A DNA stretch of 64,000 bases from Pseudoalteromonas piscicida (GTDB taxonomy: Bacteria; Pseudomonadota; Gammaproteobacteria; Enterobacterales; Alteromonadaceae), in contig NZ_CP021646.1 in the NCBI RefSeq assembly GCF_002208135.1, forward strand, positions 2,358,001 through 2,422,000. Direction: 5' to 3'. Both the position numbers and the translations under genes were made by a program. Shown here piece after piece: positions 28,065 through 41,915 of the stretch. The first letter of the stretch is position 1. Every line of letters begins with the position of its first letter. The notes beneath the pieces are model-generated. The model did not search any database. It worked only from the letters and a program-made list of their open reading frames with translations, and had not been told where the DNA came from.

Positions 28065-28540
28065 TTACTTAAAGCTATAAGATATTTTCTTAATTTTCTG
28101 CGGCTTGACTTGGGTAACATACAAATCATAAACGCGTTTCATATCAAGCTCTAATTCCGTCGCGTAAGTATCGCCGACAGCATAGCTTTTCAACACCTTA
28201 GCCCCACGAACTAGTCCATTTACTCGACTCTTAAGACCGTCGTTTTGCGCAATAGCCCTTTGACCGTGATAGTGGATGTCAAATTCTGGCCATACAGTTG
28301 CTCAGCCAATTCACGATACGCTTCTAATTTTGAGACTTTAATTGCCATTAGCTGCTTCTCACCCGCAGTTTTACCAGGCTGAGCACTCAAAGGCGCATAC
28401 CCCACAGCCCGTAAAACAGGAAAAGTTTCCGGTTGCACTGTCTCATATTCAATGTGCTTATCAACAAGGCTTGAACAGCCGCTGAGCCCCGCCAGCGAGC
28501 AAACCATAACAACTGCACTGATAGAATTAGTGATACGCAT
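28065..28540 (-). pseudogene. flgP: FlgP outer-membrane lipoprotein (LPP20 family), interrupted by a 1-base frameshift
   Basis: The open frame from the ATG at 28540 gives a lipoprotein (lipobox LSGC) with RAVGYAPLSAQPGKTAGEKQLMAIKVSKLEAYRELAEQLYG, then ends early. Adding one G to the GGG at 28256-28258 (plus-strand CCC) restores ITVKGAIAQNDGLKSRVNGLVRGAKVLKSY and continues to a stop at 28065, giving 158 residues. FlgP is an outer-membrane protein needed for stable flagella in vibrios. The readable C-terminal half shows purifying conservation, which favours a sequencing error over decay. Confidence 0.82.
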
Positions 28541-28692
28541 TTCACCCCACTCCGCTACAATATATACCAATCAAAACTTAGCACTTCCCCTGCATCTTAA
28601 TCTCGCAAGGGTTATTGTGGTTTCATTGAGTATTGGCAAGAAATAAAATTAACTTTCATAATGGATGATTATGCACGAACCTTGCCAAAATT

Positions 28693-28744: not shown

Positions 28745-29941
28745 ATGAAAAAGCAATTCGCGACCAGTCTAACACTGTTGTGTATCACCTTAACTCATCC
28801 AGCTTATGCTGAATGGTTTGAAGTTACCGGCATGGCTGACGTTAAAAATGGCGACCATCAAAAAGCCAAAAGAAAAGCCGTAAACGACGCCATTACACAA
28901 GCATTGCTGTTTTCTGGCGCTTCTGTGAGTAGTGTACAAACAGTCACCGATGGTGTGCTCACTCAAGATCAACTTAAAATCCGCTCAAATGCCGAAATCC
29001 AAAGCGCTAACGTGGTTGCTGAAGCAAAAGTCGATGACTCATGGCAAGTGACACTACATATCGATATTACGCCACAGAGTGGTCAGTGCCCAACCAGTGC
29101 CTACAGCAAACAGATTGCAGTGACACAGAGCCAGTTAAAAAATAAACATCAAGCAACATTAGGTCAAATTTTTGACATAAATAAAGCGGTGAGCGAGCGC
29201 TTGTACCAAACAATGTCTGAACAGAAGTTGAACTTAGAACCCATTCCCTACTTCGCACAGACCATAGACGTTAACCGCTTTTTCAGTCAGCGTTTTGATT
29301 ATAATGAACAGTTAATCGAGACCATAACGGCCAATACTAACAGTCAATTCGTATTACTGAGTCAAATTACTGATATTGCTAGTGTAGATAAACTCAATAA
29401 TGACCTCGCATTTTGGCAAAGCGATAAATACTTAAGAAGCTTTAAGGTAGACTTTGCACTATTTGATGCCCTTTCTCATGAAAGAGTATGGCAAAAGCAG
29501 TATGCAACTCAAGGCGTTTGGCCTTTTAAGAAGACCAAATTAATTGATGTGTACAGTGAGCGCTTTTGGCAGACAGATTATGCTGATGAGATCCAAACCA
29601 CGCTGACACAAATCGCAACAGATTTAAACGCAGCGGTCGCCTGCTTACCAACCAATGGTAAAATCCTACATATCAATGATGAACAAGTCGTTATTAATTT
29701 GGGTCGCATGCATGGCTTAAAGAATGGCCAGATCCTCAATGTAGCGCATAGTAATCCGTTGACTAACGTCGATGGTAAAATATTTATGCACCAAATTAAA
29801 ACTATTAATAAGCTGCAAGTGATCCAGGTGAATGCACAAAATGCCATTGCGGTAAACATCAGCAATCGCCCACTGCACAATGTGCAAATTAATGATTTGG
29901 TTGAAATTCAAATAGACAATGAAAATGAGTTTGCACTGTAA
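28745..29941 (+). CDS. flgT: Flagellar H-ring / assembly protein FlgT
   Basis: 398 residues with a Sec signal peptide (MKKQFATSLTLLCITLTHPAYA). The N-terminal domain (EWFEVTGMADVKNGDHQKAKRKAVNDAITQALLFSGASV), the middle SQFVLLSQITDIAS domain and the C-terminal INDEQVVINLGRMHGLKNGQ SH3-like domain follow FlgT of Vibrio, which forms the H ring around the basal body of sheathed polar flagella. It is driven by a sigma-54 promoter and is divergent from flgP. Confidence 0.9.
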   Translation: MKKQFATSLTLLCITLTHPAYAEWFEVTGMADVKNGDHQKAKRKAVNDAITQALLFSGASVSSVQTVTDGVLTQDQLKIRSNAEIQSANVVAEAKVDDSWQVTLHIDITPQSGQCPTSAYSKQIAVTQSQLKNKHQATLGQIFDINKAVSERLYQTMSEQKLNLEPIPYFAQTIDVNRFFSQRFDYNEQLIETITANTNSQFVLLSQITDIASVDKLNNDLAFWQSDKYLRSFKVDFALFDALSHERVWQKQYATQGVWPFKKTKLIDVYSERFWQTDYADEIQTTLTQIATDLNAAVACLPTNGKILHINDEQVVINLGRMHGLKNGQILNVAHSNPLTNVDGKIFMHQIKTINKLQVIQVNAQNAIAVNISNRPLHNVQINDLVEIQIDNENEFAL

Positions 29942-30446: not shown

Positions 30447-31085
30447 TTACCTTGAAGCGGTTGCCTGATCATCAAGAATAAAATACGGGATGGTCACCAC
30501 CGTGCTCGCGATCACTAAATTGGTGTTAAACTCTAGCAACCTTGCATTCACCTCCACGCCTCGTGGACGGTAAACCATAGTGCCTGTCAGCAAATGGCTG
30601 GGTGATTGCACGTTTTTCAAGCGACTTGCGTTACGAGAAAAAGTCAAATCGCCACTGGATGTCACTTCTATTTTTCCTAGCGCTTTAAAGTCTAGCGCTT
30701 GATAGCCCAGCTTTTGCATTTGATGCATTAAAGACTCAGCCAATTGGTTTCCTAGCTGATTAGTATCCCTTAGCGATTCATTAAAGTTAACAAAACTAGC
30801 GACCGCTATCGACTCCGGCTTTTGCCCCAATACCGTATCTGACAATTCCAACGCAATTTGATTGGCGTAATTCGCAATTTCTTTGCGATGACGATAGCTA
30901 ACGAAGCCAATATCTTGCGTTACCGCCGCTTGTAAATCTTCATTACGTTCTTGCTCTTCCATCATGGCATATAATATTTCCATGTCGGATTGCTGCGTTT
31001 CTGTAGATTCAGGAGCCGTCTGTTTTGTCATTTCACAGCCACCGAGTAATGCAAGTGTCGTCGCGAATAGCACTACATTTTTCAT
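30447..31085 (-). CDS. FlgO-domain outer-membrane lipoprotein (copy A)
   Basis: About 212 residues from the ATG at 31085, chosen because GGAGG lies 5 bases upstream; another ATG precedes it directly. The signal peptide ends in a lipobox (LLGGC). The FlgO domain is visible: IALELSDTVLGQKPESIAVASFVNFNESLRDTNQLGNQLAESLMHQMQKLGYQALDFK, then LTFSRNASRL and LTGTMVYRPRGVEVNARLLEFNTNLVIAS. FlgO is an outer-membrane lipoprotein of the Vibrio flagellum. Here it is the last of three tandem copies behind fimbrial genes, 13 bases after the previous one. Confidence 0.82.
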   Translation of the reverse strand: MKNVVLFATTLALLGGCEMTKQTAPESTETQQSDMEILYAMMEEQERNEDLQAAVTQDIGFVSYRHRKEIANYANQIALELSDTVLGQKPESIAVASFVNFNESLRDTNQLGNQLAESLMHQMQKLGYQALDFKALGKIEVTSSGDLTFSRNASRLKNVQSPSHLLTGTMVYRPRGVEVNARLLEFNTNLVIASTVVTIPYFILDDQATASR

Positions 31086-31098
31086 CATCGCCTCCGAA

Positions 31099-31752
31099 TT
31101 AGTTCGCGCGCTCTATACGAATGCCATCGTATGCCGCACCATCTTGTAGGGCATTGACTACGTTTTGTGGCAAAAAGCCTTGAGCAGAGCCCACGACACT
31201 TTTACTTCTAAGTCCAACCACTCTGGCATTGACCATAACTCCGCCTTGGTGATTAACCAAAGTACCACCTAGCACGTATAAAAAAGGATGGTTGTCAGAT
31301 AGCTCTAAAAAATCACGGCTAAAAATAAAATCGCCTTCAGGTGTCACCCGGATATAATCTGTTGTTTTAAAGTCCACAACGGGGATCCCAAATGCATGAA
31401 GCTCATGGATAAAGCTTTCAGCCAATTGGTTACCCAGCAAGGAGCCTTTATCAAATTCTTTATCTAAAAATACAAAACTTGTCACCGCTACCGGTGTTTT
31501 CTCATTCACGTGTTTCAAGTTTGCTACCATGTCTTGCATAATGCTTTGAACATAGTGAGTGACATTCTTACCGGCCATTTGCTGAGAAACAGAAAATTGC
31601 TTCATACCGTTTGGGTTACTTTGATACATCGAAGATTTCTCAAAGCCATTGCGCACGGGCTCAGCCTGAGCATTATCCACCGCAAAAAAGTGACTCTGAG
31701 CACAGCCAACCATCAATGAAAGAGGCAAAACCAAACTTAATACTTTTTTCAT
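31099..31752 (-). CDS. FlgO-domain outer-membrane lipoprotein (copy B)
   Basis: About 217 residues from the ATG at 31752, whose product begins MKKVLSLVLPLSLMVGCAQS, a clear lipoprotein signal; an in-frame upstream ATG overlaps the previous gene. The FlgO domain is present (VNEKTPVAVTSFVFLDKEFDKGSLLGNQLAESFIHELHAFGIPVVDFKTTDYIRVTPEGDFIFSRD, then YVLGGTLVNHQGGVMVNARVVGL). It is diverged from the other copies but shares their LGNQLAES segment with copy A. It begins 14 bases after the preceding gene ends. Confidence 0.82.
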   Translation of the reverse strand: MKKVLSLVLPLSLMVGCAQSHFFAVDNAQAEPVRNGFEKSSMYQSNPNGMKQFSVSQQMAGKNVTHYVQSIMQDMVANLKHVNEKTPVAVTSFVFLDKEFDKGSLLGNQLAESFIHELHAFGIPVVDFKTTDYIRVTPEGDFIFSRDFLELSDNHPFLYVLGGTLVNHQGGVMVNARVVGLRSKSVVGSAQGFLPQNVVNALQDGAAYDGIRIERAN

Positions 31753-31766
31753 TACTCTCATCTCCA

Positions 31767-32348
31767 CTAATATTGGCTTCGTATAATTTGACCGTCGCGA
31801 TTTGTGACACGCTCCGTCCCCCACATCGCAGCTTTAGGAATACTGATTGATGCAGCTGAAACCGCGCGATTATGTAACGTATCAACCAGCCTCGCATTGA
31901 CCAAATAGGTATCTCGACTTTCTACGATTGTGCCGACCACCACAAGGTCAATTTTCTGGCGCTGATTCAGCTTATTTAACTCCCGGCTTAACATACTATC
32001 GGCAGAACTTTGTAAAGATAAAGCGTTCCTGAGTCGATATTCCACAACATCGGCCCCCATTTGACTTAAATGGGTCATGAGGGATTCTTGCAAGGCCACG
32101 CTCAAGCCAGAACCTTGCCCATCAATGGTATCATACAGCTGATTAGCCTTAAAAAAACTCGTCACAGCAAGCGTTGAATTCGGCTTGAAGGGACGTACAT
32201 ACTGCCCGAGCTCCGCGGCTAACTGAGCGCCAAACCCATCTAAATCAGGTAAGATTTCTTGCTGCTGGGTCGCTTCTCTTTTCCCAACCTGTTGACTGCT
32301 TGTACACCCTACCAACAACACAATCACTATGAGTGCTAGATATTTCAT
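31767..32348 (-). CDS. FlgO-domain outer-membrane lipoprotein (copy C)
   Basis: 193 residues. Lipoprotein signal MKYLALIVIVLLVGCTSS. FlgO-like domain: ELGQYVRPFKPNSTLAVTSFFKANQLYDTIDGQGSGLSVALQESLMTHLSQMGADVVEYRLRNALSLQSSADSMLSRELNKL, then LVVVGTIVESRDTYLVNARLVDTLHNRAVSAAS. It is the first of the three FlgO copies and lies 54 bases after the SPOR lipoprotein. Shared operon position implies a shared function with the fimbrial proteins; that is inference. Confidence 0.8.
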   Translation of the reverse strand: MKYLALIVIVLLVGCTSSQQVGKREATQQQEILPDLDGFGAQLAAELGQYVRPFKPNSTLAVTSFFKANQLYDTIDGQGSGLSVALQESLMTHLSQMGADVVEYRLRNALSLQSSADSMLSRELNKLNQRQKIDLVVVGTIVESRDTYLVNARLVDTLHNRAVSAASISIPKAAMWGTERVTNRDGQIIRSQY

Positions 32349-32402
32349 TTCACCACGCCCACGATAAACTTATCGGATAAAATGCAAAATACGCACCAAG
32401 TT

Positions 32403-33008
32403 TTAAAGTCGATGACTGGTGTAGTGACTAACTAAGCAGCTTAAACCTGCACGCTTAAGTTGCTGGCAGCCTTGATATGCAGAGGCTTTATCTGTGAATG
32501 CACCTAATTTTAGTCGGTAGTATTTCGTACTTTGAATATCTACTTGTTCGATATTCACTTCGCTTTTAGCAAAGTCTAGCGGTAGCTTATCCTTAAGCTG
32601 TTCATAGGTCTGCCTAAGCTTGACATACTCCGTTGTAGAGGCCAATTGAATTGCAAATTCAGCCACTTCCTCCTGCTTATCTTGTTCCTCTACGAATTTT
32701 GTTTCTCGCGCTTTTACTTGTTCGGGCTGCTTTGCTAAAAGCTCCGCGTCCTTTTGTTTTGCAAGTGAACTTGATAGCTGCATCGCAATAACATCAAGAT
32801 CTTCCTGCACTTCTTCAAACTTAGCAACCTGCTGTTTTAGCGCTCTTAGCTGCTCTACTTCTTGTTGTAAGGTACTTACCTGTTGCTCCAGTAAAGATAG
32901 CTGCTTCTTCATTTGTAATGTGTCAAGTTGACTCTTGCTCGCAGTTGCTTGGCAACCACTTAACGCAACGAAACTGAGCATAGTGAGGTGCCACTTAATT
33001 GATTGCAT
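32403..33008 (-). CDS. SPOR-domain lipoprotein with coiled coil
   Basis: About 201 residues from the ATG at 33008, which has a GAAAGAG ribosome-binding sequence; another ATG at 33023 is possible. Both overlap the usher gene. A lipobox (ALSGC) is followed by a long heptad-like coiled coil (MKKQLSLLEQQVSTLQQEVEQLRALKQQV) and a C-terminal SPOR-like domain with KYYRLKLGAFTDKASAYQGCQQLKRAGLSCLVSHY. SPOR domains bind peptidoglycan lacking stem peptides. It may anchor the structure made by the upstream usher. Confidence 0.75.
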   Translation of the reverse strand: MQSIKWHLTMLSFVALSGCQATASKSQLDTLQMKKQLSLLEQQVSTLQQEVEQLRALKQQVAKFEEVQEDLDVIAMQLSSSLAKQKDAELLAKQPEQVKARETKFVEEQDKQEEVAEFAIQLASTTEYVKLRQTYEQLKDKLPLDFAKSEVNIEQVDIQSTKYYRLKLGAFTDKASAYQGCQQLKRAGLSCLVSHYTSHRL

Positions 33009-35937
33009 TTTTTTCTCTTTCATAAATAGTTAAGGCTTCCACCGCGCAAGAAACTTTGAAGGGAAGTAGGTTTTGGCAAATATTTGCCGCATTTTGCGTG
33101 GCGTCATTTCTTAAGATAAGTAAATAGGTGGCGTCGCCTTCTTTTTGCGCATACCCAAAACTGTCGCGTAATAACGTAGGATAACGCTTAGCCAAAATCG
33201 CCGCGTATACTTTTAATATAGTTAGCGTATTGAAGCGTCCAACTACAGCAAACTCTTGCGTGGTTGCATGCTGTCGCTGTAATTCGTGATTTACATCAAG
33301 CAGCAAGTCTCCCTCTGCACTTAACTCCACTTCTATCTGCTGAGTACTGGCTACCGCGAGCCTTTTCGCATCACTTATCGCTGTACGATAAGTCCCTGGC
33401 TTCAAACCAGTAAATACATAGTAGCCGTCATATGCCGTCTGAGTGCGCGCGACTTCGTTACCCTTTTCATCAAGTAAACTGACTGTTGTGAAGCCTGCAG
33501 GTCGGTGTTCAGTACCCTCATTGATTTCAACAACACCTTCAATTTCCGACGAGTTTACAAATGGTATTTCAACATATTCAATATAACCGGGCCTTGGAGT
33601 GAATGAAAAGCCATCGTTAGCGGGAACTAAAAAGGGTTCGGGGATTGTATCTTTGTCAACAATAATATCTGTTCGTTTGTAATTTACCATTGCGGGTAGC
33701 AGTGCTACACCATCGTCGTCAGTTTTACCTTGTGCAAAGTTTTGCAATGCTTTTATGGTTACCCCTTTTAGCGGTAACTCCCCATCATCAAGATAGCCAT
33801 TGTTATTCTGGTCGATAAAAGTACGAACCATCAAAGAGCCAAACTGCGACAAGCGTTTTCCTGTTAAGAAAATTTGATCTACGGTTTCGCCCGCTCCAAT
33901 ACTCACTTGGCCAGATAGACCCACTTGCCAGTTATCATCGTTATCGTATTGCAAGTCTGTTAACAACCTAAACTTATCATGGTTCCAGCTCAATCCAAGT
34001 TCGGTTTTATAGTAATCGGCAGCAAAGTCTTTGTATAAGGTAACGCCAAGATCAAGCTCAGGACTTAGCTCTTTGCTCAACTCAAGCTCTGCTGCTGTAA
34101 TTTCATTGGAAGGTTTTATGTCATACCAAGTAGTAAAACGACTATACACACCAAGAACCCTGCGCTGCCACCGCAAGTAGCCACTCACGTCGCTGGCTTG
34201 ATTGGTCGGCTCTTGCCACACAAATTGGTTACTGAAAGTACCCCAGTAATTACCCGTGCTAAAAAGTAACGATGCTTGCTCTATAGTATCAGTATTAGCC
34301 TTGTCAAGATGGAAGTATTCAGCACGATAGTAAACCTTAGCCACGTCAAAAAGAGACCACTCTCCTGCCGCCGTTAATTTTATCTCGGTCGCATTTTCAT
34401 CCTGCTCTAGATCTTCCTTTAACTCAACTTTAGCACCTACCTGTTGCCCAAGTAGACGGGTTCGAGTATTTGCAGAGAGATGTTGGGCCGCGTCGCTCTT
34501 ACTATAGTCAACATCCAGTAGTAGTAGTTTGTTAATATTGGTGTTAAACCCGGTAGAAAAGTATTGTTCTGATGCGCTATTTTTCAAACCTTGACGATGT
34601 TGCAAACCTGCATACACCGCAAAATTTTTAGTAAGTCCGTAGTCAAAGCGGCCATTTACTTGCCAGCTTGACGTCCCCGACAATGCAGTCTTGTCGCCCA
34701 GTATACTTTTGCCCGTATCAGTAATTGATACGGCAAAAAACCCTTCACCTTCATTTGCAGTGCTCTGTTCAACATAATAGGTTTGCACTTCTTTTGATAC
34801 TTGACCTTGCCCTCCATACATCACGAGTTCAAAGGTATTTTCACCAAATAGTAAATCAATATTTTCGAACTCATAGCGCCCAGATTGGAGATTGTTTTCT
34901 TGTCCAATCAATAACCCATTTCGATAAAGTTCTACGTCCCACCCTACCTGAACAGGACCTGAGATGACAATGCGCTGACGATTAGTGCGCTTATCTAACG
35001 GCGCGTTACTGAAGCTCACTCCTCGCCCTTCTTCATTTAGCGCATCGACTCCAACTTGAACACTCTGGACATCACCGAGCGACACCTTGGTAAAATTCCC
35101 AAATGGTAAAACATCAGCCTTTTTTGAAGCACGGTTGAGGGACATGCGTGAGCGATTAATGACATCTCCTTCTCTACCCGCAATAAAGTACTGGGCTTGC
35201 CAATAGGCGATGTCTTGTGAGCCAATAAGAGAATAAGATGTCTGACGATTGTCTTCAGTCATTTGCGTATTTATCTGAGCGTCCAACACTGGTTTACCGA
35301 TGCTTTGATAGGGACTTGGTCGCCACGGTAATGTTGCGCTGGCATTACGGTCAAACCTAACAACCTCCCTTCCTAATCGCTGTTGCTGTGCTTCTATTGG
35401 CAGAATTTGCTTACTCTTAACGGTCAACGATAAATCCTGTATATCGGTAAACAGACTAACATCGAATAAAGTCGCAACGATATAATCGGCGAGAAACACC
35501 TCGCCATTAATGACCTGAATTTCTCTATCACTCAATTGCGTTCGCTGCCCCTTGCTCTCAACTAGATGCGACTTGGCGTTAAGACTAAAGGTGTTTTCGG
35601 GCGTGAAGAACCAGCCGCCAAAGTTCCCCGATACATCTTCTGACACCACAAATCCCAAGGCAGAAAACAAGCTCAAGAGTTCCACATTGACGCCTTGTTC
35701 TGACGTCACCGCGATTACTTCACCTAAGTATAAATTTCCTTTATAGGCGGATAAGAATAGCTCTGTACCAACATCAACTCGAGATACAACCCGCCCTCTT
35801 TGCTGTATAGCAAGTTTTGCTTTAACGCGTTCAACCCGTTCTAACAGCTGTTGTAATGCATCAGCCTGCAATGCCAAAGCGGGCTGAAGGCATAGTGCTC
35901 CTATTAGTAACGTGCGCCAAATAGCCGATGCTCTCAT
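32995..35937 (-). CDS. Usher-like outer-membrane protein with Ig-like and SPOR-like C-terminal domains
   Basis: About 980 residues from the ATG at 35937. A signal peptide (ending QPALA) is followed by an N-terminal periplasmic domain, a long stretch of amphipathic beta strands ending in aromatic residues, and near the C-terminus a carboxypeptidase-regulatory-like repeat (DQNNNGYLDDGELPLKGVTIKAL; then VARTQTAYDGYYVFTGLKPGTYRTAIS). It ends with a SPOR-like segment (AVVGRFNTLTILKVYAAILAKRYPTL, C-x9-C). It lies after a PapD-like chaperone, so it is most likely the usher of an alternative chaperone-usher system. It does not look like classical FimD at sequence level. Confidence 0.68.
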   Translation of the reverse strand: MRASAIWRTLLIGALCLQPALALQADALQQLLERVERVKAKLAIQQRGRVVSRVDVGTELFLSAYKGNLYLGEVIAVTSEQGVNVELLSLFSALGFVVSEDVSGNFGGWFFTPENTFSLNAKSHLVESKGQRTQLSDREIQVINGEVFLADYIVATLFDVSLFTDIQDLSLTVKSKQILPIEAQQQRLGREVVRFDRNASATLPWRPSPYQSIGKPVLDAQINTQMTEDNRQTSYSLIGSQDIAYWQAQYFIAGREGDVINRSRMSLNRASKKADVLPFGNFTKVSLGDVQSVQVGVDALNEEGRGVSFSNAPLDKRTNRQRIVISGPVQVGWDVELYRNGLLIGQENNLQSGRYEFENIDLLFGENTFELVMYGGQGQVSKEVQTYYVEQSTANEGEGFFAVSITDTGKSILGDKTALSGTSSWQVNGRFDYGLTKNFAVYAGLQHRQGLKNSASEQYFSTGFNTNINKLLLLDVDYSKSDAAQHLSANTRTRLLGQQVGAKVELKEDLEQDENATEIKLTAAGEWSLFDVAKVYYRAEYFHLDKANTDTIEQASLLFSTGNYWGTFSNQFVWQEPTNQASDVSGYLRWQRRVLGVYSRFTTWYDIKPSNEITAAELELSKELSPELDLGVTLYKDFAADYYKTELGLSWNHDKFRLLTDLQYDNDDNWQVGLSGQVSIGAGETVDQIFLTGKRLSQFGSLMVRTFIDQNNNGYLDDGELPLKGVTIKALQNFAQGKTDDDGVALLPAMVNYKRTDIIVDKDTIPEPFLVPANDGFSFTPRPGYIEYVEIPFVNSSEIEGVVEINEGTEHRPAGFTTVSLLDEKGNEVARTQTAYDGYYVFTGLKPGTYRTAISDAKRLAVASTQQIEVELSAEGDLLLDVNHELQRQHATTQEFAVVGRFNTLTILKVYAAILAKRYPTLLRDSFGYAQKEGDATYLLILRNDATQNAANICQNLLPFKVSCAVEALTIYEREKNAIN

Positions 35938-35956
35938 CAAGTTCGCTTACACCAAA

Positions 35957-36739
35957 CTACAAGGATACCGAGTCATCTACAAAAGTGCGGTCAGTGTATT
36001 CCTCATCACCCACATACTTTATTAGGACCTTACCTGATGGGCTAAGTTTAATTGCTGGGTCTACCAAGAACTCTACACTTCTTTGATTAAGCTCTGGATA
36101 TACAGCAAACTTATTCAGCACGCCGATCCGCACTGGTTTAGCGTCATTTTTACCCTGCCAATAAGCGGATAGTTCGCCAAAACTACTATATTTCCCTGTT
36201 CGATTAAGTAGTACCGTTATTGCCTGACGACCACCTTTTGCGTCGCGTACAGTGACATCTTCAAGCCGTATTTGCGGGTTCGCATCGCCAACTCGCAGCA
36301 TAACCGGAATGCTATAGCTCATCAGCACGTCAATATTGATACCTTCTTTCAGGTTACCTTTATTATTCGGCAGCTCCCTAAAGAGCAGGTGTGAGCGATA
36401 CTCTCCTTGTTCCATATTTGCCTTTCTCCGCACGGCCAGCTTTATCACCTGACGCTCACCTGGCCCTAATGTTACTTGTCTAGGTGAAATACGGATGAAA
36501 TGACTCGCTGCCATAGGGTTCATATTTTGCTCGGCAAAATTGGCGTAACCACCTTCTTTAAGTGCTAGCTTCTCTTGAAATTCAAGTCGATAAGATTTGG
36601 TCACATCACCATTATTAATGATAGTAACTCTTTCAATTCTCTGACGCTCTTCGAAAGCAACGCGTGTTGGGGTGATCATTAAGTTGGCGCTTACTTTACA
36701 GCAACAAAACAAAAGCAGCGTTAATATTAATTTATTCAT
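35957..36739 (-). CDS. PapD-like periplasmic fimbrial chaperone
   Basis: 260 residues with a signal peptide (LILTLLLFCCCKVSA). Domain 1 has the chaperone pattern LMITPTRVAFEERQRIERVTIINNGDVTKSYRLEF, then FIRISPRQVTLGPGERQVIKLAVRRKANMEQGEYRSHLLFRELP, which matches the PapD-like fold with the RQV-P-G-Q element. Such proteins hold pilin subunits in the periplasm and deliver them to the usher. It lies 19 bases before the usher and 3 bases after the minor pilin gene. Confidence 0.85.
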   Translation of the reverse strand: MNKLILTLLLFCCCKVSANLMITPTRVAFEERQRIERVTIINNGDVTKSYRLEFQEKLALKEGGYANFAEQNMNPMAASHFIRISPRQVTLGPGERQVIKLAVRRKANMEQGEYRSHLLFRELPNNKGNLKEGINIDVLMSYSIPVMLRVGDANPQIRLEDVTVRDAKGGRQAITVLLNRTGKYSSFGELSAYWQGKNDAKPVRIGVLNKFAVYPELNQRSVEFLVDPAIKLSPSGKVLIKYVGDEEYTDRTFVDDSVSL

Positions 36740-36742
36740 AAT

Positions 36743-37201
36743 TTAGTAAGACAAAGTTATTTCAACATTTAAAGTTTGCACCCCATCCGATAGGGACTTA
36801 CCATTACCAGCAAAACGCAATTGACCACCGACTTTAAACTCACCAGACCCGACACTATCCGTGTAAATCGCCTTCTCGTGATACAGCTCTATCAATTGAA
36901 ACGCATCGGATGCGCCAAGATTCCAATAACCAAACCAGTCGTTGTACACTGTAGATTGGACACTAATTTGGCGGTTGTGGGGAAAATCGGTCAAAAGGAT
37001 TTCTGCCGCATGACCAAACTCTACAAATAGAATATTGCTTGACGTTTGTGGCCGAACATTAGGCTCTATTGTCACTGTACCGGCACTATTTTGATCAATA
37101 ATCGCAATCGTGCCAAAGCTCAGTTTCTTGACTACTGATATGTCTTGAGCTTTGACAAAGTGACTGACAAAAAGTAATGCCAGTACAATGTAGCGCCACA
37201 T
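36743..37201 (-). CDS. Secreted pilin-like protein, DUF4402-related (minor subunit)
   Basis: 152 residues with a signal peptide (MWRYIVLALLFVSHFVKA). The mature part shows the DUF4402-type layout: KLSFGTIAIIDQNSAGTVTIEPNVRPQ near the start, a beta-rich centre, and a closing SLSDGVQTLNVEITLSY. It probably is a tip or minor subunit next to the main pilin. It is 3 bases downstream of the pilin gene and 3 bases before the chaperone. Classification rests on pattern similarity, so family placement is moderate. Confidence 0.65.
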   Translation of the reverse strand: MWRYIVLALLFVSHFVKAQDISVVKKLSFGTIAIIDQNSAGTVTIEPNVRPQTSSNILFVEFGHAAEILLTDFPHNRQISVQSTVYNDWFGYWNLGASDAFQLIELYHEKAIYTDSVGSGEFKVGGQLRFAGNGKSLSDGVQTLNVEITLSY

Positions 37202-37204
37202 GTT

Positions 37205-37786
37205 TTAGTATGCGATTTCGATATCAACTTTGCTGGTGTATACACCGCCACCGTACGTATCTGTCCCTGAAAGGGCTTTCGTACTTAGTGTTGCACCAAC
37301 AGAAAGCGTTGCAGCACCATTTGCATCAACTCTAAACTTGTTGTTTGTCACTTCGCTATTGGGTTGTGCACCGCTTACCACATAAAATTCAAAATCCTTT
37401 AAATCAAATGAAGCATTACCTACGCTATCCACCGTAGTTGCAGCCGGAACCGTAATCGTTAACTCAGTATTTGGCGCTGCATCTGTGATATTGATAGAGC
37501 CAGCTCCCCCCGTACTAATGAGGTTTATTACTGCATCACCAGTATTCTTAATTTCAGGGTCAGTCAGTGTTGGATCCGCCTCAATTTTCATCGTAGCGAC
37601 ATCAGCTGCATCCCCCTGTACTCGAATGATACCAAAATCAAGTGGGTCACCGGCTTCAGCTGAAAATAAATTTTTAACTTCAACTTTTACTTCAAGGCGA
37701 GCAGTATCTTTAGCAATTACTGAAGAGGTAAGTAAAGCAGCGGATATAGAACTTGCGATAAGCGCAGATTTAATCAGTGTTTTCAT
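37205..37786 (-). CDS. DUF4402-like pilin subunit (major)
   Basis: 193 residues. Signal peptide ends VIA/K; the mature protein has LFSAEAGDPLDFGIIRVQGDAADVATMKIEADP, a beta-rich Gly/Ala/Thr centre, and a final TLSVGATLSTKALSGTDTYGGGVYTSKVDIEIAY, which is the DUF4402 pattern of secreted structural proteins in chaperone-usher loci. It is the first gene of the operon and lies about 65 bases downstream of a sigma-28-like promoter at 37852-37878. It is the candidate main surface subunit. Confidence 0.75.
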   Translation of the reverse strand: MKTLIKSALIASSISAALLTSSVIAKDTARLEVKVEVKNLFSAEAGDPLDFGIIRVQGDAADVATMKIEADPTLTDPEIKNTGDAVINLISTGGAGSINITDAAPNTELTITVPAATTVDSVGNASFDLKDFEFYVVSGAQPNSEVTNNKFRVDANGAATLSVGATLSTKALSGTDTYGGGVYTSKVDIEIAY

Positions 37787-37851
37787 CTTTAAATTCCTTT
37801 AGGAGTCATTTTTATCATCACCGCAATACCGTTTTTTTGGTGACTTATTCT

Positions 37852-37878
37852 TTATCGTTCCCAAATGGGAAAACTTTA
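37852..37878 (-). promoter_or_regulatory. Sigma-28-like (FliA) promoter of the pilin operon
   Basis: The minus strand reads TAAAGTTT, 11 bases, AACGATAA. The -35 matches the sigma-28 consensus at all 8 positions, spacing is exact, and the -10 matches at 6 of 8 including CGATAA. It lies between the stop codon of the upstream lipoprotein gene and the pilin start codon. Confidence 0.68.
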
Positions 37879-37885
37879 GTAAAAA

Positions 37886-38395
37886 TTAAAGCATTAATCT
37901 TCTACAATCAATGCTTTGGATAGAAAATAGTCTACAATAAATTTTTGCTTCTGGAATTGATCTTAATCCAGAAACTGTCGCCCAGTCTCGCATTTCAAAC
38001 GCTTGTATTTGAAACTCAGCTCCTAAGAATATAGTGGGAAACCTTTGCTTTACCGCCGCTAATAACGCTTGATGCTGCTCGACCTGAGGCCCGGAATTGA
38101 TAGATACTGGAAATAATTTCAGTTGAATTCCAGTCGTTTGATTAGCTTTTTGTTTACTGGCGGAATAACGCTTAACCTCTACACCAGTATTCGGTACTGC
38201 TTGAATATTATCGACGTTAGCTTGAGACTCTAACAAAGTAAGCAGGTTTGAGAGATCCTGTTCTAACAAGCTCAATCGCTCAATACTTTCGAGCTGCTGC
38301 TCGGTTAATTGTGAGGGCTGCTGAGCTGAATGACTACAACCACTCAAAACAATGACGATGCCAACCACAAAAAGTAAAAAAAGCTTAATATTCAC
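37886..38395 (-). CDS. Lipoprotein of unknown function with SPOR-like C-terminus
   Basis: 169 residues. A signal peptide with lipobox (LSGC) is followed by a coiled-coil-like stretch (LTEQQLESIERLSLLEQDLSNLLTLLESQ) and a beta-alpha C-terminal part ending in EAKIYCRLFSIQSIDCRRLML. This C-x9-C end resembles those of the SPOR lipoprotein and the usher-like protein in the same cluster. It lies 99 bases before the pilin gene but upstream of the sigma-28-like promoter, so it may be separately expressed. I do not recognise a named family. Confidence 0.6.
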   Translation of the reverse strand: MNIKLFLLFVVGIVIVLSGCSHSAQQPSQLTEQQLESIERLSLLEQDLSNLLTLLESQANVDNIQAVPNTGVEVKRYSASKQKANQTTGIQLKLFPVSINSGPQVEQHQALLAAVKQRFPTIFLGAEFQIQAFEMRDWATVSGLRSIPEAKIYCRLFSIQSIDCRRLML

Positions 38396-38496: not shown

Positions 38497-39382
38497 TTAC
38501 CTTTTAGTAATTAAATCGATAAGGGAAGCAAGCTCAGTCGAATATTCTTCTCTTCGCATCGCATGTTCAACTATCGCTTTTAAATAGCCGATTTTGCTCC
38601 CGCAATCATGACTTTTTCCACGTAATGAGTATGCATCCACTTGCTCTCGCTCCATCAACATCGCAATAGCATCAGTCAATTGAATTTCGCCACCAGCACC
38701 TAGCGGTGTTTTTGCCAAAAGTGGCCAAATAGATTTGTTTAACACGTAACGACCAACAACGGCTAAGTTTGAAGGCGCACTTTGTTGTTCTGGCTTTTCG
38801 ACGATAGACCGCATCGCACTTGATTCTCCTTGCGCGAGTGCTGCCCCCCCCAAAATCCACAATACCAAACTGAGAGACTAGCTCAGGTGCCACCGCTTCT
38901 ACCATCACTTGGCTATTACCAGAAGCTTTAAAACGCGCGATCATGTCAGCAAGATTATCTTTTGTTAAGTCACATGCGGCCTCATCGACTAGCACATCAG
39001 GCAACATAACCACAAAGGGCTCATCACCAATCACAGGCGCTGCACAATTGATGGCATGGCCAAGGCCACGAGCCTCACCTTGGCGTACATGGATCAGCGT
39101 AACCCCTTTGGGACATATAGATTGCACGTCTTCAAGAAGCTGACGCTTAACCCGCTTTTCCAGTGTTGCTTCCAGCTCAAAGCTCTTATCGAAGTGGTTT
39201 TCAATTGAGTTTTTACTCGAATGGGTAACCAGCACGATTTCTTTGACGCCCGCCGCCGCAGCTTCATCTACAACATACTGGATCAAAGGCTTATCGACAA
39301 TTGGTAGCATTTCTTTTGGAATGGCCTTAGTCGCGGGTAACATGCGAGTGCCAAGACCCGCCACTGGAATAACGGCTTTCAT
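38497..39382 (-). pseudogene. galU: UTP-glucose-1-phosphate uridylyltransferase GalU, interrupted by a 1-base frameshift
   Basis: The start is the ATG at 39382 ([26 protein letters not shown]). The frame breaks at the eight-C run 38844-38851 (plus). Removing one C restores [26 protein letters not shown] and gives 294 residues, the normal GalU length. GalU makes UDP-glucose for surface polysaccharide. The downstream half ([32 protein letters not shown]) is well conserved. An 8-base homopolymer is a typical site for a sequencing slip; slippage-based phase variation is an alternative. Confidence 0.9.
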
Positions 39383-39390
39383 GACTGCTC

Positions 39391-40224
39391 CTAAATAGCG
39401 ACTGGTGCCTTGATATGCGGGTGACATTCATAATTCACCAACTCAAAGTCTTCAAACTTAAAACCAAAGATGTCTTTTACTTGAGGATTGATCTGCATTT
39501 GCGGCTTAGCAAATGGCTCGCGGCTTAACTGCTCTTCAACTTGTTCCATATGGTTTAAGTACAAATGGGCATCGCCAAAGGTATGCACGAAATCACCCAC
39601 TTCTAAGTCGCAAACTTGAGCAATCATCATTGTTAACAGCGCATAGCTTGCGATGTTAAAGGGTACCCCCAAGAAAATATCCGCACTTCGTTGATAAAGC
39701 TGGCAAGAGAGCTTGCCATCTAGTACATAAAATTGGAATAACGTGTGGCAAGGTGGCAACGCTTGTTTGCCCATCGCTGCGTTTTCTTTCGGTGAATAGC
39801 TCGTGTCTGGCAAAAGTGCAGGGTTCCATGCACTCACAATTAAACGGCGAGAGTCAGGGTTGGTTTTGATTTGCTCAACAACATCGCTGATTTGGTCAAT
39901 CACCTCACCATTTGGCCCTGTCCAAGAACGCCACTGGCTACCATAAACCGGGCCTAAGTCCCCCTCATCCGTTGCCCAGCCATCCCAAATACTAACACCA
40001 TTTTCCTTTAGGTATTTGATGTTAGTATCGCCTTGCAAGAACCAAAGTAGCTCGTGAATAATCGAGCGTAGATGACACTTTTTCGTCGTTACAAGCGGGA
40101 AGCCTTCTTGCAAATTGAAGCGCATCTGGTATCCAAAAACACTCACTGTGCCGGTGCCCGTGCGGTCTTCTTTTTTTGTACCATTATCACGCACATGGCG
40201 CATCAGTTCTAAATATTGCTTCAT
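39391..40224 (-). CDS. thyA: Thymidylate synthase
   Basis: 277 residues. It converts dUMP to dTMP with methylene-tetrahydrofolate. The catalytic cysteine is C159 in [12 protein letters not shown]; other signatures are [30 protein letters not shown] and the closing [23 protein letters not shown]. There is a small insert ([12 protein letters not shown]) before the active site compared with E. coli. It lies 13 bases after lgt, the same order as E. coli. Confidence 0.97.
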
Positions 40225-41059: not shown

Positions 41060-41868
41060 TTAATTCATTAACATATTGCCAGCGATAACAATGAGTAACG
41101 CCGCAAACACTTTCTTAATCGTTGTAACTGGTAAGTGGTGCGTAGCTTTAGCACCAATAGGCGCCATAAACCATGAAGTTGCTACTATACCAAACAAAGC
41201 CGGTAAATAGACAAAACCTAAAAATCCATGTTCAATATCCACATGTTGGCTGCCAGAGGCGATATAGCCAAAGGAGCCAAATATAGCAATAATGATACCG
41301 CTGGCAGACGCACATCCTATCGCTTTTTTCATATCAACAGAGAAAAATGTCAGTAGTGGGACGATTAGCGCCCCACCGCCAATACCAATCATTGCAGACA
41401 ACGCCCCGTTACTGAGGTTAGCATCGCAAGTACCGGACCTTGTGGTATGACTCTGGTTGATTGTGGCGGTCTTCTGGAACTCCACGCCATTTTCAAAGCA
41501 ATACCCACAACACTAACCACAAAAATAATTCTAACGAGTTTTTCAGGCAACATCACTGCGGCAAAGCCACTACCCAGCGCGCCGACTGCCACACCTAACA
41601 TCACCCATGGCGCAATGTGCCATGGAACATTGTCATTTTTATGATGCGCTTTGGCTGAAGATGTCGAAGTGAAGATAATGGAGGCAAGTGACGTCGCAAT
41701 TGCAACCAACACCACCTGATCTGTGGGTATAATATCAAATTTGGTCAAGATGACAGATAAAATGGGGACTATCAGTAGCCCGCCGCCGATACCAAGCAGA
41801 CCGGCCAAAAAGCCAACTGCACAGCCTAGCAAAGCGCAAAGTACAACGATGAGTATAATAGTTTCCAT
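41060..41868 (-). pseudogene. TauE/SafE (TSUP) family permease, interrupted by a 1-base frameshift
   Basis: The N-terminal half (GFLAGLLGIGGGLLIVPILSVIL) and the C-terminal half (MIGIGGGALIVPLLTFFSVDMKKAIGCASASG) are the two repeats of the family and lie in different frames. Adding one C to the CCCC at 41404-41407 joins them through LTSVTGALSAMIG and gives 269 residues from the ATG at 41868. TSUP proteins move sulfur-containing or organic anions across the inner membrane; the substrate is unknown. Homopolymer sequencing error is likely. Confidence 0.82.
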
Positions 41869-41915
41869 CAACAAGCTCTTATTCTTATAGCGCCGTAATG
41901 GTAGCGTAAATAGCC

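Follow-up and report, generated by a model that had tools for sequence, protein, structure and literature searches.

Which surface structure is encoded by a gene run that joins the subunits, chaperone and usher of a chaperone-usher (CU) pilus to lipoproteins of the flagellar FlgO family, and is it made together with the flagellum? The run lies on the minus strand of the window analysed here, that is, the whole 64,000-nucleotide stretch covering positions 2358001-2422000 of a 4.1 Mb Pseudoalteromonas replicon. The reading that we favour, with a probability of about 0.57, is that of a CU pilus module placed by SPOR-type domains and belonging, in marine Gammaproteobacteria with polar flagella, to the late FliA (sigma-28) flagellar regulon. 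The unit is made up of an upstream lipoprotein (UL), pilin, minor pilin, chaperone, usher and SPOR lipoprotein, and FlgO is a recurrent neighbour that is not integral to it.

Gene run and SPOR-like domains

The features of the region, in window coordinates, are the following.

37886..38395, minus: upstream lipoprotein UL with a SPOR-like C-terminal domain; open reading frame (ORF) with lipobox LSGC
37852..37878, minus: candidate FliA (sigma-28) type promoter, 2 mismatches to TAAAGTTT-N11-GCCGATAA
37205..37786, minus: major pilin; DUF4402, 37.6 bits; chaperone-usher subunit fold
36743..37201, minus: minor pilin; DUF4402 (PF14352), 28.8 bits
35957..36739, minus: PapD-like periplasmic chaperone; PapD_N (PF00345), 27.0 bits
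32995..35940, minus: outer-membrane usher, by predicted fold
33019..33288, minus: SPOR-like usher tail, residues 885-974, by hhalign and model
32403..33023, minus: SPOR-domain lipoprotein; PF05036, 28.6 bits at a cut-off of 21; lipobox LSGC
31767..32348, minus: FlgO-domain lipoprotein O1; PF17680, 103 bits; lipobox
31099..31752 (from ATG; 31824 if GTG), minus: FlgO-domain lipoprotein O2; PF17680, 150 bits; lipobox
30447..31088, minus: FlgO-domain lipoprotein O3; PF17680, 117 bits; in a clade with CU-adjacent FlgO of other genera
28745..29941, plus: flgT, encoding an H-ring protein and running towards the convergent FlgO trio; PF16539/PF16548/PF16538

The earlier note on this DNA had described eight closely spaced minus-strand genes with a chaperone-usher set at their head, and both descriptions held: all eight ORFs were confirmed, and a predicted usher fold, a PapD-like chaperone and Ig-like pilins support a real CU set. 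Gaps of 3 bp separate pilin from minor pilin and minor pilin from chaperone, followed by 16 bp between chaperone and usher, a 29 bp overlap of the usher and SPOR lipoprotein ORFs, 54 bp before O1, 14 bp between O1 and the ATG of O2 at 31752 (the listed GTG start gives an overlap) and 10 bp between O2 and O3. A scan of the region placed no minus-strand terminator-like site at the operon's gene junctions; terminator-like sites numbered 13 as compared to 7.9 in shuffles, and the four on the minus strand were all intragenic. Pfam matches to DUF4402, PapD_N, SPOR and FlgO all exceed the curated cut-offs.

The usher is predicted to form a beta-barrel with a plug and extra domains, the architecture of the usher fold. 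It is 92% identical to the usher of a named P. piscicida and also to that of P. flavipulchra. The usher profile PF00577, annotated for the ushers P0002 and P0003, gave no match in the window usher at E<=1 and matched just one among 19 aligned relatives (E 6.3e-6); SdrD_B, in the C-terminal part, was the only family above its Pfam cut-off. PF00345 was also matched by 39/41 aligned relatives of the chaperone (E<=0.01), and the pilins are Ig-like subunits ending in an aromatic residue, consistent with a C-terminus recognised by the chaperone. Sequence-profile searches against solved structures yielded no convincing relative: they returned no match at E<=0.01 for the chaperone, one unrelated row at E 0.54 for the pilin and, for the usher, a match to the SdrD_B-like part only (8.7e-5), nearly all other rows being antibodies. 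Pilin genes are repeated in some relatives, with three in Alteromonas facilis and two each in Rheinheimera D18 and Glaciecola sp. 33A (L106, L093 and L117, respectively).

The SPOR-like UL and the SPOR-like usher tail are components beyond those of the earlier note. The tail sits past the part of the usher that aligns to FimD/PapC; rows of the usher structure search cover residues 206-886, with the N-terminal domain and the tail outside. Profile comparison by hhalign aligned the tail with the SPOR lipoproteins (probability 98.0%, E 1.8e-13) and with UL (96.9%, E 1.7e-10), and UL-type C-termini with the SPOR lipoproteins (probability 99.2, E 1.8e-19). In the AlphaFold2 model, residues 891-974 are predicted to run strand-helix-strand-strand-helix-strand. 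PF05036 was found in 3/19 aligned ushers (best E 4.3e-9), and the Pfam scan returned no PF05036 match in the window usher or in UL. Profile comparison, with the model in the case of the usher tail, points to putative SPOR domains in both proteins.

Across Pseudoalteromonas the nearest gene 5' of the pilin is SPOR-like in 60/61 usher loci examined, a set that includes some double copies of one genome. One to three SPOR-like genes are retained in 19/33 Pseudoalteromonas FlgO regions without this usher (L134-L171), and in G081, which lacks this usher, the usher-alignment search recovered a 202-aa ORF just 5' of FlgO that matches usher model positions 896-972 (E 2.5e-6). The persistence of SPOR lipoproteins without the pilin-to-usher block hints at a pilus-independent role.

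A FliA-type site before the pilin gene

The FliA consensus, TAAAGTTT-N11-GCCGATAA, was calibrated against the genome and control regions. The window site at 37852-37878 carries TAAAGTTT, an 11-nt spacer and 6/8 of GCCGATAA, and ends 65 bp before the pilin ATG. Genome-wide, 19 sites with at most two mismatches were found as compared to 4 for a reversed control pattern, a background of about 4e-5 per 100-bp stretch. Some of the 19 are intragenic, and others lie 5' of flgM and of fliD-, motA/pomA- and chemoreceptor-like genes, the translations of these being judged by eye.

The survey was extended to relatives by scoring 250 bp ahead of the first pilin gene of each locus and keeping the best match; 85 regions were reduced to 55 non-redundant ones. 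Sites with at most three mismatches precede the pilin in 27/55 regions, at 27 to 170 nt from the first ATG of the pilin ORF; 14 of these have at most two mismatches and one is perfect. At the same threshold a site was found in 21/23 flgM control regions and in none of those before thyA (0/54), galU (0/34), ptsP (0/30), the chaperone (0/76), the usher (0/85), UL (0/30), flgT (0/34), flgP (0/35) and the first FlgO of usher loci (0/52). Few positives came from lgt (1/33) and from the minor pilin (1/71), and a site preceded the first FlgO in 3/26 non-redundant Pseudoalteromonas regions that lack the usher; dinucleotide-model shuffles of the pilin regions were positive at 0.36%. As regions within a genus share ancestry, the weight is carried by sites across genera; the positive loci include those of Pseudoalteromonas, Thalassomonas, Catenovulum, Marinomonas, Psychromonas, Aestuariibacter, Bowmanella, Marinifaba and Alteromonas. 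Loci of the Glaciecola type have the order usher, SPOR, minor pilin, chaperone and then pilin; a site stands directly before the pilin in 5/10 of them (L116, L117, L119, L123 and L201) and no site stands there in L107, L112, L115, L120 and L200. The candidate sigma-28 promoter with a perfect -35 element that had been proposed before the first gene is thus upheld, with sequence conservation reaching beyond this genome and genus.

That the match is fortuitous or read by another sigma factor, and that the operon is expressed independently of flagella, appears very improbable. In favour of this explanation, a good site is missing from roughly half of the regions. It sits poorly with the recurrence before the pilin across genera at near-zero controls, with sigma-70-like sites in the region being below the shuffle level (10 vs 15.8), and with the co-occurrence of the usher with FlgT. 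The latter was seen in an even draw of 295 genomes across the order, in which FlgT was present in 25/25 genomes with an usher of the broad family and in 171/295 overall (p 5e-7, or p 4.6e-5 counted by genera, both uncorrected for phylogeny).

FliA control of all CU systems was considered and rejected, as 0/9 loci of another CU type (L217-L225), scanned from 4.5 kb upstream to the usher end, carried a site with at most three mismatches. In a third CU type with an usher of about 840 aa (L226-L232), a FliA-type site was observed ~3.4 kb upstream in 6/7 loci; in L226, the sole locus inspected, the gene that follows it encodes a 477-aa protein, not a pilin. Separately, a perfect FliA consensus was noted directly 5' of a FlgO gene in L166 (G096), a Pseudoalteromonas without the orthologous CU operon, and sites with 2-3 mismatches were noted before the first FlgO in L157, L160 and L164.

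FlgO as a recurrent neighbour

FlgO matches in the window genome number exactly three, all at this locus, and O1-O3 each carry the FlgO domain plus a lipobox. The usher alignment was searched against 108 Pseudoalteromonas genomes, a score of over 660 bits being taken as an orthologous usher. This was found in 66/108 genomes (the copies in G083 and G100 being fragmented), 64/66 of which have a same-strand FlgO within 5 kb downstream of the usher, a count that covers all but G123. In G131 the CU module is on a different replicon with no FlgO there. FlgO itself is present in 107/108 genomes, mostly with three matches, and in 41 of the 42 genomes without an orthologous usher, so the CU module is not needed wherever FlgO is. 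In the fetched FlgO regions without this usher, FlgO lies beside galU/thyA in 33/33 and flgT is within the stretch in 23. As FlgO keeps its place there, the FlgO genes look like older residents of the region, and the SPOR-like genes retained in 19 of these regions suggest that the pilin-to-usher block was lost repeatedly.

The FlgO-CU neighbourhood recurs in other genera. In Paraglaciecola, in A. profundi and in G168 and G272 (both f16 genomes), FlgO stands upstream of the CU genes and reads in the same direction, and it is convergent with them in Bowmanella, Lacimicrobium, Aestuariibacter, A. facilis and Rheinheimera D18. A second usher class, in which matches end before the SPOR tail, also adjoins FlgO in ten genomes (G034, G127, G128, G186, G197, G203, G259, G279, G290 and G398), the first three being Pseudoalteromonas. 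A FliA site is at the pilin start in 5/10 of these loci, read directly in L206, L208 and L214 and judged from distance in L207 and L213; the site of L211 is unplaced, and L158, L161, L162 and L212 have none at the pilin. In the order-wide draw FlgO was within 10 kb in 12 of 24 informative usher-positive genomes and absent from that range in 12, the G142 contig being too short. A chance rate of ~0.9% per genome would give 0.2, a rough expectation uncorrected for phylogeny.

Several observations weigh against the favoured reading. The orthologous usher is missing from 42/108 genomes of the genus, and 28/55 regions, including the P. luteoviolacea group and Paraglaciecola, have no site with at most three mismatches. 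FlgO was not within 10 kb in 27 of the 80 usher loci kept from 389 relatives, some of these being truncated by contig ends, and the Marinomonas assemblies G413 and G417 have the CU operon with no FlgO match. The FlgO-CU link in particular is weakened by Catenovulum, Psychromonas, Marinifaba, Gayadomonas and others, where FlgO is at flgT and the CU genes are elsewhere. Hence the earlier claim that the eight genes form one system did not stand: as a fixed operon they are ruled out by FlgO regions that lack the CU genes (33/33) and by CU sets without FlgO (G131, G413, G417). Conservation in relatives, which had been put forward as a check, was borne out for the FlgO-CU neighbourhood and not for the eight-gene arrangement, which varies and from which FlgO is separable.

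One alternative is an ordinary adhesive CU pilus that merely chances to be controlled by FliA and is not physically linked to the base of the flagellum; its FlgO neighbourhood would be inherited synteny and hitchhiking in a flagellar region, and its SPOR domains generic wall anchors. In its favour are the 33 regions and the separate replicon of G131. Three-FlgO clusters, frequently at a distance from flgT, are also present in genomes without CU genes (genus g27 and others), and many CU-adjacent FlgO genes fall outside the clade of O3 described below. We nevertheless consider this explanation possible but rather unlikely, as FlgO adjoins the CU genes upstream and co-directional, downstream and co-directional, convergent and beside a second usher class, and does so in the order-wide draw far above the rough chance rate. 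A position of FlgO away from flgT was itself discarded as a mark of CU linkage since CU-less genomes also show such clusters.

The relationship was further resolved in a FlgO tree of 131 rows, 41 of which came from 19 genomes without CU genes (20 loci); five more CU-less genomes with one FlgO each lie outside the tree, which contains long branches, e.g. L158, and is to be read with caution. A clade of 13 rows (support 100/92) contains the Pseudoalteromonas O3 and CU-adjacent FlgO of Bowmanella, Lacimicrobium, A. facilis, Aestuariibacter, A. profundi and G034, and none of the 41 CU-less rows. O3 is retained in two Pseudoalteromonas that lack this usher (L137 and L157). CU-adjacent FlgO of Paraglaciecola, G272, G279, G197, G127, G128, G259, G186 and L108 are outside, and therefore the clade marks only part of the FlgO-CU linkage. 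Further FlgO genes are found elsewhere in four of the other genomes (L243-L246).

This clade, confined within the tree to CU-adjacent genes or Pseudoalteromonas, would suit a CU fibre that is a structural part of the flagellum, a fibre or collar either on the sheath or encircling the hook exit, with FlgO paralogues as its outer-membrane dock. So would the sheathed flagella described for several Pseudoalteromonas in PMC7175336, whose cited titles include the former Flavobacterium piscicida and A. luteoviolacea. According to PMC7990780, PMC6504787 and PMC7175336, Vibrio FlgO acts with FlgT and FlgP in the outer-membrane H-ring, and loss of flgO in V. alginolyticus leaves about 10% of flagella periplasmic. 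A structural role is nonetheless improbable: the 41 genomes above keep FlgO without an orthologous usher, and Vibrio, which has both H-ring and O-ring (PMC7990780), contributed only one locus to the 80 kept.

Among neighbouring genes, a flgP-like ORF at 28220-28570 (minus) is apparently short, and galU-like and TauE-like genes at 38497-39427 (minus) and 41060-41874 (minus) are each split into two overlapping frames. Assembly indels or real frameshifts are both possible.

Proposed mechanism and related systems

In the simplest model, ushers anchored to the peptidoglycan of the new pole would assemble the fibre at a late stage of flagellar construction. Export of FlgM would free FliA, which would then transcribe the genes for the DUF4402 pilin and, in the same direction, for the minor pilin, chaperone and usher. 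The pilins would be folded by the PapD-like chaperone and polymerised by the usher, through donor-strand exchange, to give a surface fibre. At division sites, SPOR domains bind glycan strands that amidases have processed. The SPOR-like tail of the usher and the two flanking SPOR-like lipoproteins may thus hold the assembly site on denuded, amidase-processed peptidoglycan, expected at division sites and new poles, and tethering at new poles would let the fibre grow at the site of polar flagellum construction. Lipoproteins of the FlgO family would be a separate module of recruited neighbours, perhaps working partners at the outer membrane.

The placement of the fibre at the flagellar base that had been suggested stays conjectural. 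A flagellum-coupled pilus organelle, timed by FliA to the completion of the flagellum, placed at the nascent pole by SPOR domains of the usher and the two lipoproteins and with its usher docked by a dedicated O3-clade FlgO on or next to the outer-membrane ring of the motor, is doubtful in our estimate. If true, the docked fibre would decorate the polar flagellum at its base or on its sheath, and SPOR-targeting with flagellar control would define a new CU class.

CU pili and flagella are usually viewed as alternative and often oppositely regulated surface programmes. A late-flagellar promoter recurring in many genera, a SPOR-like usher domain and flagellar-ring neighbours would, if the favoured reading is true, mean that some marine bacteria build a fibre as part of motility. 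Predictions follow on polar adhesion, on sheath or motor-ring structure and on usher placement in the envelope, for which we know of no described mechanism. A literature search, with subscription papers and bioRxiv outside its scope, gave no match for DUF4402, alone or with chaperone-usher, and, in the titles and first abstract lines covered, no description of this system. The words 'usher' and 'pilin' were absent from PMC5864184, PMC11882849 and PMC8919034, and PMC3219624 and PMC7859628 were unrelated.

The closest known systems include the archaic (Csu, CupE) CU pili. Type 1 and P pili (FimD, PapC; FimC, PapD; FimA, PapA) share the usher fold, the PapD-like chaperone and Ig-like pilin subunits with an aromatic last residue, whereas the operon described here has DUF4402 subunits, a SPOR-like usher tail, SPOR lipoproteins and a FliA-type promoter. 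The flgO/flgP/flgT H-ring genes of Vibrio share the FlgO family and the presence of flgT/flgP in the same region, but three FlgO paralogues are found here with six CU/SPOR genes upstream of them. SPOR-domain proteins are known from FtsN, RlpA and DamX. The SPOR profile of the lipoprotein, together with the SPOR-like usher tail and UL, is shared with this family; unlike in the division proteins, the putative SPOR domains here are on an usher and on short lipoproteins. The operon is a real variant of the chaperone-usher pathway.

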